Both the position numbers and the translations under genes were made by a program. 64,000 bases of DNA from Massilia oculi (GTDB lineage Bacteria; Pseudomonadota; Gammaproteobacteria; Burkholderiales; Burkholderiaceae_D). Under the pieces are notes generated by a model. It worked only from the letters and a program-made list of their open reading frames with translations. It made no database searches and had not been told where the DNA came from. This document shows positions 5,717 to 9,855 of the stretch, piece by piece. How positions within the stretch are numbered: position 1 is the first letter of the stretch; each line of letters starts with the position of its first letter. The stretch is taken from positions 1,116,001 through 1,180,000 of the forward strand of contig NZ_CP029343.1 in NCBI RefSeq assembly GCF_003143515.1, given 5' to 3'.

Positions 5717-5767
5717 GATTTGACCCACCACAAACACACACCAGGGCCAGACACCAAACTGGCCGGC

Positions 5768-6061
5768 ATGGACAAACCATCCTGCGTTTACATCCTGGCC
5801 AGCCGCCCCTACGGCACTCTCTACATCGGCGTTACCTCTGACCTGATCAAGCGCGTGTGGCAGCACAAGGAAGCTGTCGTGCCGAGCTTCACCAGCAAAC
5901 ACGGGGTCAAACGCCTCTTCTGGTACGAAACCCGCACCGACATCACCCACGCCATCCTTCGCGAGAAACAGCTCAAGCGCTGGAACCGGGACTGGAAGAT
6001 CAACCTGATCCAGTCCACCAATCCGACGTGGCACGACCTGTACGCCGCGATATGTGGCTGA
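5768..6061 (+). CDS. Small GIY-YIG nuclease-like protein
   Basis: A 97-residue single-domain GIY-YIG protein. The two signature elements appear as CVYIL (about residues 6-10) and LYIGVT (about 18-23), followed by the conserved Arg-x3-His in KRVWQHK, a Tyr in WYET and the catalytic Glu region REKQLKRW. This corresponds to the short YhbQ/URI-like group found in many proteobacteria, with roles inferred in DNA repair or as orphan nucleases. ATG 5768 is preferred over the upstream start at 5720, which lies close to the repeat. It converges on the beta-lactamase gene with 6 bp between the stops. Confidence 0.85.
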   Translation: MDKPSCVYILASRPYGTLYIGVTSDLIKRVWQHKEAVVPSFTSKHGVKRLFWYETRTDITHAILREKQLKRWNRDWKINLIQSTNPTWHDLYAAICG

Positions 6062-6067
6062 AAAGGT

Positions 6068-7666
6068 CTACAACAGCCCTAACGACTGCAAAGCCGCCTT
6101 CCCCAGCGGCACCCGCTTGGCGCCAACCGTATCGTCGGTGATGTCGGCATTCAGCGCGAACGCATACACCTTGCCGTCCTTCTCGACCCAGCCGACCCAC
6201 CAGCCGATCTGGTTCTTGCGATCGTCGGGCATATACCAGCCGGTCTTGGCGTACAGGTTCGCGTGATCGTCCTGGCGCACGATCTCGCGCACCGCCGCCA
6301 TCGCGGCTTTCGGAAACGGCAGCTGGTCCTGCGCCAGCCGGCCCAGGAAACGGGTCTGCTCGATTGCGCTGATCTTCAACGGCCCTTCGAGCCAGAAGGC
6401 GTCGATGACAGCCCCCGCATCCATATTGCCGTAATCGAGCTGGCGCAGGCCCTCTCGCATGCGCGGCATGCCGATGCGGCGCGCCAGTTCCTTGTACACC
6501 GGGACGTTCGATATCCTGATCGCCTCGCGTAGCGGCATGTCCCTGGCCCATTGCGGCAGGTAGGTCGGCCCGCCGCCGTACGGCAACACTTCGTCGACGC
6601 TGGAGACGGCGCCGGTCGCCAGGCCGATCAGCGAATTGGGAATCTTGTAGGTCGACGCCGGGACGTAGCGGATATTGGCGCGCTGGCGGTCATGCCCTGT
6701 GTAGACGTTGGCGGCGACGTCGTGCACGACGAAGGTGCCGGTCACGCCCGCCTTCTCGAACATCTCGGCGATCTTCGCATCGTCGCGCCAGACGATCGCA
6801 GGCGTCTTCGCTTCTTCCGCCAGCGTCTTCTGCAGCCGCGCGCGGCCCTTGTCGGCATAGGCGCGGCAAGCGGTCTTGTCGACGAAGGCCGCGTTGCCGA
6901 GCGTGGCGCGTTGCGCGTGACGCTTCCATACATCGCTCCCTTCAGGATGGGCCGAGACCAGCACGTCGCAAGGCAGGGCCGCGACTTTCGCGATCGAGCG
7001 CTCCACGTCGCCGCGCGCGTTCGGATAGGCCGGGTCGCCGCTGTAGCGGAAGCCCCCGGCGCCGATGGCGTTCAGGCTGTCGGCATACACCATGTTCACG
7101 CGCTTGCCGCCATCGTTCGACGTCCAGGTCCAGGTCGATCCCCCCTGGGTGTGGCCGGGGGTCGCATGCAGGGTGACGGCCAGCGGACCGACCTTGACCG
7201 TCTCGCCGTCGCGCACGACGCCGACCCTGGCCACCGGCGCCATGTCGTTTTCCAGCAGGCCGGCATATTGCGGATCGCCGCGGCTGACTTTACCGGTGCG
7301 CAGGACCGCGGCCGCGGCGGGCGTGGCCCTGACCTCGGCGCCGGACAGCCGTTGCAGCTCGGCGATCCCGCCCGCGTGGTCGAAGTGCTCGTGCGAATTG
7401 AGGATGATGCGGATGTCCTCGACCTTGAAACCGAGCCTGCGGACATTGGCGGCGATCTGGCCTGCCGCCTCCGGCGTAGCGCCGTCGATCAGGATGTGGC
7501 CTGTTTTGGAGGTAATCAAGACGGCGCTCAGGCCGCGCGTGCCGACGTAGTAGCTGTCGGCGGAGAGCGCGAACGGGTCCTGCGGCGTGTTCCAGTCACT
7601 GGCGGATGCGAAAGGCATGCACGTGACGAGGCCAGCCGCGGCCAATGCCAGGCTTGTGATCTTCAT
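6068..7666 (-). CDS. Fused subclass B3 metallo-beta-lactamase / class D (OXA) beta-lactamase
   Basis: A 532-residue exported protein with two complete beta-lactamase domains. After a signal peptide (about 1-22), residues 25-285 form a B3 metallo-beta-lactamase: HEHFDH (His92, His94, Asp96, His97), GHTQGG (His172), Ser197 in ADSLN and His240 in SAHPEG supply the expected ligands of both zinc sites. Residues about 289-532 form a class D serine enzyme: STYK (Ser338, Lys341), SNV (386-388), YGN (412-414) and KTG (474-476). The OXA half has no signal of its own, so both act in the periplasm as one chain. Start ATG 7666 follows AAAGGA and lies 22 bp after the blaR1 stop. B3 enzymes usually hydrolyse carbapenems. 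From memory, the Massilia B3 enzyme MSI-1 was reported to overlap a putative OXA gene; this should be checked. Confidence 0.93.
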   Translation of the reverse strand: MKITSLALAAAGLVTCMPFASASDWNTPQDPFALSADSYYVGTRGLSAVLITSKTGHILIDGATPEAAGQIAANVRRLGFKVEDIRIILNSHEHFDHAGGIAELQRLSGAEVRATPAAAAVLRTGKVSRGDPQYAGLLENDMAPVARVGVVRDGETVKVGPLAVTLHATPGHTQGGSTWTWTSNDGGKRVNMVYADSLNAIGAGGFRYSGDPAYPNARGDVERSIAKVAALPCDVLVSAHPEGSDVWKRHAQRATLGNAAFVDKTACRAYADKGRARLQKTLAEEAKTPAIVWRDDAKIAEMFEKAGVTGTFVVHDVAANVYTGHDRQRANIRYVPASTYKIPNSLIGLATGAVSSVDEVLPYGGGPTYLPQWARDMPLREAIRISNVPVYKELARRIGMPRMREGLRQLDYGNMDAGAVIDAFWLEGPLKISAIEQTRFLGRLAQDQLPFPKAAMAAVREIVRQDDHANLYAKTGWYMPDDRKNQIGWWVGWVEKDGKVYAFALNADITDDTVGAKRVPLGKAALQSLGLL

Positions 7667-7688: not shown

Positions 7689-9413
7689 TTAGAGCGCGTC
7701 CAGTCTTGCAGGCAGTTCGCGCAGGAAGGCTTCTTTCAATAGCGGACCGGCTGCGCGATCGGGATTCTCCCGGTCCAGGATCAGGCGCGCGAACACGATC
7801 GTGCGCCCTTCCTTGCTGGCCCAACCGACGAACCAGCCATAGGAGCGCGGCGGATCTTGCGAACCCTTCGGCCGATCCAGCACGGCGGTGCCGGTCTTGG
7901 CGTACACGTCCCAGCCGTTCGGCAGCGTGGGCAGGCGCAGCAGCGTCGCCGTCATGTCGTAGGCCTGCGCATTCAAACCCAGCTCGCGGTTGACGACCTT
8001 GCGCAGGAACGCCGCCTGCTCTTGCGCCGAGATCTGCAGCGAGGAACCGATCCAGGCATCGGTCACGCCACCCGACAGGTCCCGGTTGCCGTAGTCGAAA
8101 CGCTGCAAATACGATTGCAAGCCATCGAGACCAAGGCGCGCGGTCACCTGCTGCGCATACCACACGGTCGAGTTGCGGATCCAGCCCGTGGGGTCGGTGG
8201 TGGTGCGCCAGGCCGGCAGCCAGTCGACATAACCCTTCCTGAACGGCAGCGCCGGCGTGTGGGCGTCGACCAGGATGCCCGCGTCGTAGCCCATCAGGCT
8301 GACGACGATATTAAAAGTGGAGGCCGGCGTGGCGCGCACATCGCAGTCGCCCTGCTCGACGAGGGGGGCGCCGCTCGCGGCGTCGAGCATGAGGGTGCAA
8401 TCGAGCCTGGCCGGCTGATCGCTCCAGGCCAGCGCGGGCTGCAGCGCCAGGTTGCCGCCGAAGGCCAGCGCCAGGATCGCGAGTCCCGCGCCGCGCGCCC
8501 ATGCCGCATGCCGCGCGGCGCCGGGAGCACGGATCAGTTCAACGCGGGCCGCCAGCGTATCGGGGCTGACGCCGCCAAATGCCAATGCCCCGTTCACCGT
8601 ACGGTGCTGCATGCGCAGCTGCGCGACCAGCGCGGCGGCATAGGCGCGGCGTTCGAGCGGCGGCCGGCCGCGCAACACGTCGCGGTCGCAGCCGAGTTCC
8701 TGCGCCCAGGCGAGTCGTTCGCGCAGCAGGCGCATGGCGGGATTGAACCAGCACAGCGCCTGCAGCCCGGCGCCCACCGTCAGCCACCACAGGTCGCCGC
8801 GGCGCCAGTGCGTCAGTTCATGGGCCACGATCAGCTCGCGCTGGAGCGGATCGATGTCGCGCAGGCCGCGCGGCAGCAGCAGGCGCGGCTTGAATGGGCC
8901 GACCAGCATCGGAGGTATGGGGGCGTCGACTTCGATGACGGCAGGGTGCGCCGGATGCGCCTGGGGCGCCTGGGGCGCCCCGCATCGCATCAGGCGCTGC
9001 ACGATCCGCTGGCCCTGCCACAGCCTGCCGACCATCCAGGCGAGGCCGCAGGCATAGATCGACACCCAGGCCCAGGCCAGCCACGCCAGCCAGGAACGCT
9101 CACCTGCGATGGTGGCCGGCATGCCGGCGGCGGGGCCCGATGGCGCCAGGGCGGCGGGCAGGCTTGCCGCCACCGCGCTCACGTCGACTTCGAACACCGG
9201 CTGCATCTCCGCCTGCCGGGCGGGCGCTATCAACAGCAACAGGAAAGTGGCCGCGATCGCGGCCTGGCCCAGCAGCCAGGTCGAGCGCTGCATGCCCAGC
9301 GCCGGCAGCGCACGGCGCGCCAGCCGGGTCGCGCCCCACACCGCCAGCCCGGCCGCCAGGCAACCCGCGCTGGCGAACAGGAAGCGGATGGCCAACTTGT
9401 CGAGCGCGGTCAT
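7689..9413 (-). CDS. blaR1: BlaR1-family M56 sensor/signal-transducer for beta-lactams
   Basis: A 574-residue membrane protein. Hydrophobic segments lie at about 8-28, 46-63, 108-128 and 306-328. The cytoplasmic M56 metallopeptidase domain carries HELTH (198-202) with the downstream ELGCDRD motif. The C-terminal periplasmic sensor (335-574) is class D-like, with STV (415-417), YGN (441-443) and KTG (506-508). In known BlaR1, drug acylation of the sensor serine triggers cleavage of BlaI. Here the S-x-x-K motif reads S365-T-F-N368, so the usual carboxylated lysine is missing. ATG 9413 is chosen because it overlaps the blaI stop by 4 bp (ATGA); the reading frame stays open upstream, but that part matches nothing in the family. 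Confidence 0.9.
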   Translation of the reverse strand: MTALDKLAIRFLFASAGCLAAGLAVWGATRLARRALPALGMQRSTWLLGQAAIAATFLLLLIAPARQAEMQPVFEVDVSAVAASLPAALAPSGPAAGMPATIAGERSWLAWLAWAWVSIYACGLAWMVGRLWQGQRIVQRLMRCGAPQAPQAHPAHPAVIEVDAPIPPMLVGPFKPRLLLPRGLRDIDPLQRELIVAHELTHWRRGDLWWLTVGAGLQALCWFNPAMRLLRERLAWAQELGCDRDVLRGRPPLERRAYAAALVAQLRMQHRTVNGALAFGGVSPDTLAARVELIRAPGAARHAAWARGAGLAILALAFGGNLALQPALAWSDQPARLDCTLMLDAASGAPLVEQGDCDVRATPASTFNIVVSLMGYDAGILVDAHTPALPFRKGYVDWLPAWRTTTDPTGWIRNSTVWYAQQVTARLGLDGLQSYLQRFDYGNRDLSGGVTDAWIGSSLQISAQEQAAFLRKVVNRELGLNAQAYDMTATLLRLPTLPNGWDVYAKTGTAVLDRPKGSQDPPRSYGWFVGWASKEGRTIVFARLILDRENPDRAAGPLLKEAFLRELPARLDAL

Positions 9414-9793
9414 GGGGCCCCGTCCGTGTCGACCGGCCAGTCGTTGAGGAGCCGCTCCAGGCGGGCCAGCTCCGCATCGTCGACCAGCTTGCTGCCAGTG
9501 AACATATTGACCGGCAGAGGCGTATCGATTTCCATTACGCGCCGGCCGAAGTCGTGGGCGAAGGCGGCCAGGGTATCGACCTTGTCGCTGACCGCCTCGT
9601 ACACCTGCACGCCATGGCGCAGCTCCTGGCGCACCATGTTTTTCTCGAGCATGCGCTCGAGCGTCTTGCGGGTCGACGAATACGACCACGCCAGCTCCTC
9701 GACCACCGCGTCATGGATTTCGCGGGCGCTCAATGGCTGCCGGCGCCACAGCGCTTTCAGCAGGCTCAGTTCGGAGATCGAGGGGACGGCCAT
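9410..9793 (-). CDS. blaI: BlaI/MecI-type repressor
   Basis: A 127-residue winged-helix repressor. The N-terminal part (ISELSLLKALWRRQPLSARE, then SYSSTRKTLERMLEK) matches the DNA-binding domain of the BlaI/MecI/CopY family, and the C-terminal half is the dimerisation region normally cleaved on induction. ATG 9793 follows a GGAG-type ribosome site. It is first in the operon blaI-blaR1-bla and overlaps blaR1 by 4 bp. A perfect 7-bp-arm palindrome lies inside its promoter, consistent with autorepression. The operon is collinear, unlike the divergent staphylococcal arrangement. Confidence 0.9.
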   Translation of the reverse strand: MAVPSISELSLLKALWRRQPLSAREIHDAVVEELAWSYSSTRKTLERMLEKNMVRQELRHGVQVYEAVSDKVDTLAAFAHDFGRRVMEIDTPLPVNMFTGSKLVDDAELARLERLLNDWPVDTDGAP

Positions 9794-9825: not shown

Positions 9826-9855
9826 ATCATGCGACAAGTGTCGCACGCCTGTCAA
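9826..9855 (-). promoter_or_regulatory. blaI promoter with BlaI operator
   Basis: On the minus strand a perfect -35 TTGACA (9855-9850) is followed after 18 bp by CATGAT (9831-9826). The spacer and -10 overlap the palindrome TGCGACA-AG-TGTCGCA (9830-9845 on the plus strand), whose ACA-N2-TGT core resembles known BlaI/MecI operators. Repressor bound there would block the promoter about 35 bp before the blaI start. Confidence 0.75.

Follow-up and report, generated by a model that had tools for sequence, protein, structure and literature searches.

A 64,000-nucleotide stretch of the Massilia oculi genome (NZ_CP029343.1, positions 1,116,001 to 1,180,000; hereafter the window) contains a gene, at positions 6068..7666 on the minus strand, in which a subclass B3 metallo-β-lactamase and a class D β-lactamase are joined in one open frame. 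Judging from its sequence and those of its relatives, the gene is likely to encode a periplasmic β-lactamase with two mechanisms, in which both halves are competent, and to have been born from a coupled pair of B3 and OXA genes; it is probably regulated by the BlaI repressor. A single chain with both domains had been proposed in an original prediction made from the letters of the window, and is borne out by the sequence, by family models, by the predicted structure, and by 48 related fusions.

Two β-lactamase domains in one frame

The frame begins with ATG and runs for 532 codons and a stop codon, with no internal stops. Residues 1–22 (7601..7666, minus strand, as for all coordinates of this gene and its operon) form a putative signal peptide: the N terminus is hydrophobic (best 12-residue mean hydropathy, 2.18), which supports the signal peptide originally proposed, and the predicted structural model starts with low confidence. 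The putative cleavage site follows residue 22. The B3 domain occupies residues 23–286 (6809..7600), the joint residues 287–292 (6791..6808), and the class D domain, which is OXA-50-like, residues 293–532 (6071..6790). The joint, which extends from the last B3 helix to the first class D strand, had been expected near residue 285; in the predicted model the last B3 helix stops at residue 286, and the class D domain is recognizable from Trp293.

Family models agree with this division. At a threshold of E 0.001, Pfam matched only Lactamase_B (residues 47–179), Lactamase_B_2, and Transpeptidase (residues 326–524). The NCBIfam model bla_subclass_B3 scored 327 bits against a cut-off of 240 (residues 24–285), and bla_class_D_main scored 268.2 bits against a cut-off of 250 (residues 299–531). 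The best NCBIfam match of the N-terminal half is the MSI-1 model (NF000456), to which the original prediction had compared it; since the score of 416.5 bits falls short of the cut-off of 550, the N-terminal half is a relative of MSI-1 rather than a member of its family. The OXA-50 models also match below their family cut-offs, with NF000432 scoring 287.5 bits of the 580 required and NF047495 scoring 295.8 of 600.

The zinc ligands of B3 enzymes consist of the motif His-X-His-X-Asp-His plus two further histidines. In the fusion the motif is HEHFDH (residues 92–97; 7376..7393), and alignment to solved B3 enzymes confirmed His92, His94, Asp96, His97, His172, and His240 as the zinc-ligand set. The motifs of class D enzymes (SxxK, SxV, YGN, KTG, and the omega-loop tryptophan), a list taken in part from a published account (PMC9045261), are all present as S338TYK (residues 338–341; 6644..6655), S386NV, Y412GN, K474TG, and W425. 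The zinc ligands and the four class D motifs named in the prediction were all where it had placed them, and at the level of residues each half has its full catalytic set.

To find relatives, we searched about 5.8 billion proteins and examined the best 120 of 1847 matches; counts from this list, and from the genus and family lists described below, are lower bounds. Together with the window protein, at least 49 are full-length fusions, 32 of them at ≥77% identity and 17 at about 60%. The six zinc ligands, S338, K341, S386, N387, V388, K474, and W425 are kept in all 49, and complete YGN and KTG motifs are each present in 48 of the 49. One fusion, P0051, shifts to another frame near its C terminus. 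Within the genus, the frame is open across both domains in at least four other genomes, and an NCBI entry from Massilia timonae (P0006) shows the same fused frame. Chance or a local sequencing error is therefore not the source of the fusion. The M. oculi genome itself, a single 5.84-Mb contig, contains one fusion gene; besides it, the search matched only the sensor domain of the neighboring blaR1. The genome's nearest named relatives are Massilia species, with best-segment identities of 92% to M. arenae and 91% to M. timonae. In public records, the protein is described as hypothetical or as a subclass B3 protein in M. timonae and Massilia sp. REN29. A 320-residue protein of Massilia sp. UYP11 (P0053) is 88% identical over the B3 part and loses the frame late in the B3 domain; in this record, a fusion gene appears broken.

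We also compared nonsynonymous and synonymous substitution rates (dN/dS; Nei-Gojobori method) in the ten pairs formed by the fusion genes of five genomes of the genus. The ratio was 0.13–0.28 in the B3 half and 0.11–0.22 in the class D half. With the conservation of the catalytic residues, these low ratios indicate that selection keeps both halves functional, and make it unlikely that one domain is inactive.

The M. timonae fusion appears in public records both as the 530-residue P0006 and as a 245-residue "class D β-lactamase" (P0122), which is the C-terminal part of P0006 read from an internal ATG. This duplication is an annotation gap. We considered and rejected an internal start yielding a separate class D enzyme: codons 270–300 of the window gene contain no in-frame ATG, GTG, or TTG, so the P0122 start lacks a counterpart there, and a product begun at that point would have no signal peptide in front of it.

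Fused and separate genes in Massilia and relatives

Close relatives have the alternative arrangement of two neighboring but unfused genes. Among 62 genomes of the genus, that of M. oculi included, at least five carry the single-frame fusion (G000, G005, G010, G035, and G059) and at least six carry adjacent separate B3 and OXA genes (G008, G009, G012, G038, G039, and G049). When we used a fusion from a second group, described below, as the query against 392 genomes of the family and scored three candidates per genome, the same five genomes gave the only two-domain spans among the matches listed. In G037, residues 213–532 were matched with one TGA; as no B3 piece was found beside this OXA gene at a threshold of E 0.01, it is not counted as a pair. 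OXA genes of the same kind also lie apart from B3 genes: in G016 and G032 the two are unlinked or placed on different contigs, and L063 (Massilia sp. Leaf139) is a further case, so the partners are not always neighbors.

Fused and separate genes differ at the joint. In the five fused genomes, exactly 63 nucleotides separate a conserved Cys-Arg-x-Tyr-Ala block at the B3 end from the first class D tryptophan. In all six separate pairs the OXA and B3 genes occupy different frames, and the same landmarks are 113, 113, 113, 113, 146, and 176 nucleotides apart. At four loci (L073–L076) the B3 stop overlaps the OXA start in the sequence ATGA, and OXA opens with its own signal peptide. At L077, a 26-nucleotide spacer precedes the OXA ATG; were translation to begin at a GTG instead, the start would overlap the stop of the B3 gene. 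At the joints of the five fused genomes, we found neither the B3 stop nor a second signal peptide. Consistent with this, the best hydropathy before the class D core was at most 1.04 in fusions (48 of the 49 measured; P0037 was left out), compared to a median of 2.62 in separate OXA proteins (78 of 115). As the stop and signal peptide are both missing in the fusions and present in the pairs, the two states differ by the stretch that contains them. For export, the class D half of a fusion would therefore depend on the signal peptide of the B3 half.

To place the fusions among separate proteins, we built unrooted trees of each domain from 22 fusions of the 49 (9 from one group and 13 from the other) and one in three of the separate proteins. 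The fusion group that includes the window protein joins, in the B3 tree, separate MSI-1-type B3+OXA pairs (96/93), making the comparison with MSI-1 an apt one; the two B3 genes of such pairs that we tested scored 460 and 538.5 bits on the MSI-1 model. The second fusion group is placed elsewhere, amid separate B3 proteins. In the class D tree, the window's group forms one clade (100/99), whereas members of the second group are interspersed with separate OXA proteins bearing signal peptides. A single clade of all 22 fusions was rejected by approximately unbiased (AU) tests in both the B3 tree (p-AU 0.00016) and the class D tree (p-AU 0.00032), and the class D tree requires at least six changes between the fused and separate states. 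A single event for the second group was likewise rejected on the class D tree (p-AU 0.003), a weaker result, as this group was defined after inspection of the tree.

Because both domain trees reject one clade of fusions, fusion probably occurred at least twice, and perhaps more often. On balance, we lean towards a broader proposal: that dual-mechanism zinc/serine fusions arose repeatedly and independently in Massilia and its relatives from adjacent genes in inducible operons, and that they are selected and form a recognizable enzyme class.

The operon, the proposed working, and its alternatives

Two genes upstream of the fusion, on the same strand, have Pfam matches above cut-off. One (9410..9793) encodes a BlaI-type repressor (Penicillinase_R), and the other (7689..9413) encodes a 574-residue BlaR1-type sensor with an M56 metallopeptidase domain (HELTH at residue 198) and a class D-like sensor domain. 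We placed the blaI start at the ATG at 9793, as the TTG at 9826 falls in the −10 box. The order is blaI, blaR1, fusion; the blaI stop and blaR1 start overlap in the sequence ATGA, and 22 nucleotides separate blaR1 from the fusion gene. Upstream of blaI is a predicted operator, the inverted repeat TGCGACA-CT-TGTCGCA (9830..9845), flanked by a −35 box, TTGACA (9855–9850), and a −10-like box, CATGAT (9831–9826), both read by eye. The operator is also kept in front of blaI in relatives: at three other fusion loci (L003, L004, and L005) it is exact except for the two bases at its center, and it has one or two mismatches at L006–L009. The exact pattern occurs once in the window, and allowing up to two mismatches gives two matches versus 0.55 expected. 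The simplest reading is that the three genes form an inducible operon repressed by BlaI.

The BlaR1 sensor domain departs from its class D relatives in one motif. Where the aligned solved class D structures have STFK, the sensor has STFN (8310..8321), with asparagine in place of the usual lysine of SxxK. Asparagine is present in all 14 loci that cover this position. Among 120 homologous proteins, a regular expression found STFN in 87; 29 had no motif match, and four had STLD, possibly by chance. Of the two counts, that over the 14 loci is the more reliable. Without a lysine to carboxylate, the sensor may retain its acyl adduct for longer. The Protein Data Bank (PDB) includes an acyl-enzyme of OXA-10 K70C. 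On the other side of the fusion gene, a small frame resembling a GIY-YIG endonuclease by eye (5720–6061, plus strand) is convergent with it and ends 7 nucleotides short of its stop.

From these features, we propose the following working. One Sec-type signal peptide would export a single chain, the zinc-dependent B3 half followed by the serine-dependent class D half, and the latter would reach the periplasm solely within the fusion. The B3 site is expected to act on carbapenems, cephalosporins, and penicillins via zinc, and the OXA-50-like site on penicillins and oxacillin via an acyl-serine and a carboxylated lysine. BlaI would repress at the operator inside the promoter until β-lactam binding by the BlaR1-type sensor induces the operon. 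The two active sites most likely work additively, as independent sites on one exported chain; possible gains from joining are a fixed one-to-one dosage, the need for a single signal peptide, and insurance during zinc shortage. As to origin, the gene would descend from a translationally coupled B3-then-OXA pair downstream of blaI-blaR1, in which loss of a short stretch, with the stop codon of the first gene and the signal peptide of the second, also put the two frames in register.

Several features weigh against this account. The linker is short, and a predicted template modelling score (pTM) of 0.75 leaves the relative placing of the domains unfixed. Constraint is looser in the signal-peptide stretch (dN/dS 0–1.14) and at the joint (0.10–0.95), although these stretches are short. 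The class D tree does not group the window's clade with the MSI-1-type pairs; as it does not reject that grouping either (p-AU 0.41), it tolerates the exact donor pair that the B3 tree supports. Finally, unrooted topology alone permits a fused ancestor with later splits.

This last possibility, one ancient fusion followed by repeated splitting, is unlikely. Such a history would be in keeping with the lack of a root in the trees and with the position of separate OXA proteins inside the second fusion group, but every split would have to regain an OXA signal peptide, which the nested proteins P0194, P0201, and P0206 each have at their start, while fusion requires loss only. Repeated fusion is therefore the simpler account, one that we infer from unrooted trees, and the AU tests in both domain trees also speak for it. 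We consider it a little less probable still that the pre-protein, once exported, is processed into two independent enzymes. The joint is short and surface-like, the folds are independent, and relatives do well with two proteins; against this, no second signal peptide was found in the fusions, no conserved cleavage motif was seen at the joint, and its length and letters vary among fusions.

Two further explanations fare worse. If only one half were enzymatic, the other would serve as a binding, stabilizing, or regulatory module. There is precedent for such a role, since β-lactamase folds act as sensors, as in the class D-like domain of the adjoining BlaR1, which lacks the motif lysine. The fusions, however, keep the zinc ligands, Ser338, and Lys341 in every one of the 49, and purifying selection is similar in both halves, making this explanation very improbable. 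A sequencing or assembly error, in which an insertion or deletion at the joint merges two adjacent genes on paper, has a negligible chance of being correct. Adjacent separate genes do exist in six of the 62 genomes, and a minor error might conceivably join such a pair. Yet the separate pairs differ from the fusions at the joint by tens of nucleotides rather than one, and the artefact is refuted by the 49 full-length fusions, by the same frame in M. timonae P0006, and by the identical 63-nucleotide joint in five independent genomes. The original prediction would have failed had the joint contained a stop or a frameshift, and comparison with these other fusions excludes both.

If both halves work as proposed, one product would hydrolyze β-lactams by two unrelated chemistries. 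Chelation or zinc shortage would then spare the serine half and serine-directed inhibitors the zinc half, and disabling the enzyme would take more than an inhibitor of serine enzymes or the removal of zinc by itself. The gene is of added interest in that close relatives keep the separate-gene state and that there is evidence of more than one fusion. With the states before and after preserved in relatives, gene fusion in a resistance operon becomes directly testable, and the question raised is whether joining, compared to an adjacent pair, affects export, stability, stoichiometry, or spectrum.

Comparison with known β-lactamases

Our searches of the open literature, a body of work outside which most subscription papers fall, brought up no account of a B3-class D fusion. 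The nearest named enzyme to the N-terminal half is MSI-1, which Gudeta et al. in 2016 reportedly described as overlapping a putative OXA gene. MSI-1 belongs to the same B3 sub-family and is said to share the B3-then-OXA order; it differs in that its NCBIfam model, 289 positions long, describes a stand-alone protein, whereas the window protein is fused and scores 416.5 bits where 550 are required. MSI-1 is listed for M. oculi in a naming review (PMC10740994). Similarly, the solved chain of MEM-A1, a B3 enzyme from a soil metagenome (PDB 6e0s), is a stand-alone protein of 286 residues, whereas the B3 domain of the window is fused. For the class D half, the nearest solved structure is FUS-1/OXA-85 (PDB 4ied). 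The OXA-50-type enzymes match the whole mature class D domain (residues 290–532); the fusion differs from them in falling below their family cut-offs, and its class D half lacks a signal peptide of its own.

Other fusions of the same B3 sub-family carry a different partner. In at least nine proteins (P0067, P0071, P0088, P0094, P0098, P0104, P0106, P0109, and P0117), a PF00756 esterase replaces OXA. The eight esterase-fused proteins used in the B3 tree form one clade with the related locus L083 (100/99). These resemble the window protein in that an enzyme is attached after the same C-terminal helix, and differ in that the partner is an alpha/beta hydrolase and the clade a separate one. The C-terminal helix of this B3 sub-family seems to accept different enzyme partners. 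We know of no description of a B3-PF00756 esterase fusion.

The closest precedent for two β-lactamases in one chain is LRA-13, which was found in Alaskan soil and joins a class D to a class C enzyme. It has been described as the first bifunctional β-lactamase, and each half contributes to resistance (PMC3675766). A second account reports LRA-13 relatives from Massilia, Duganella, and Janthinobacterium, where the neighboring gene encodes a BlaR1 with a class D domain (PMC5967600). LRA-13 and the window fusion share two complete β-lactamase domains per chain, the same bacterial family, and a neighboring BlaR1 with a class D-like domain. They differ in that LRA-13 consists of two serine enzymes, class D followed by class C (609 residues), whereas the window protein consists of a zinc enzyme followed by class D; Pfam found no class C β-lactamase domain in the fusion at E 0.001. 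At the level of sequence, the interpretation of this gene holds, and the B3-class D fusion appears to be a new combination within the known bifunctional β-lactamases.
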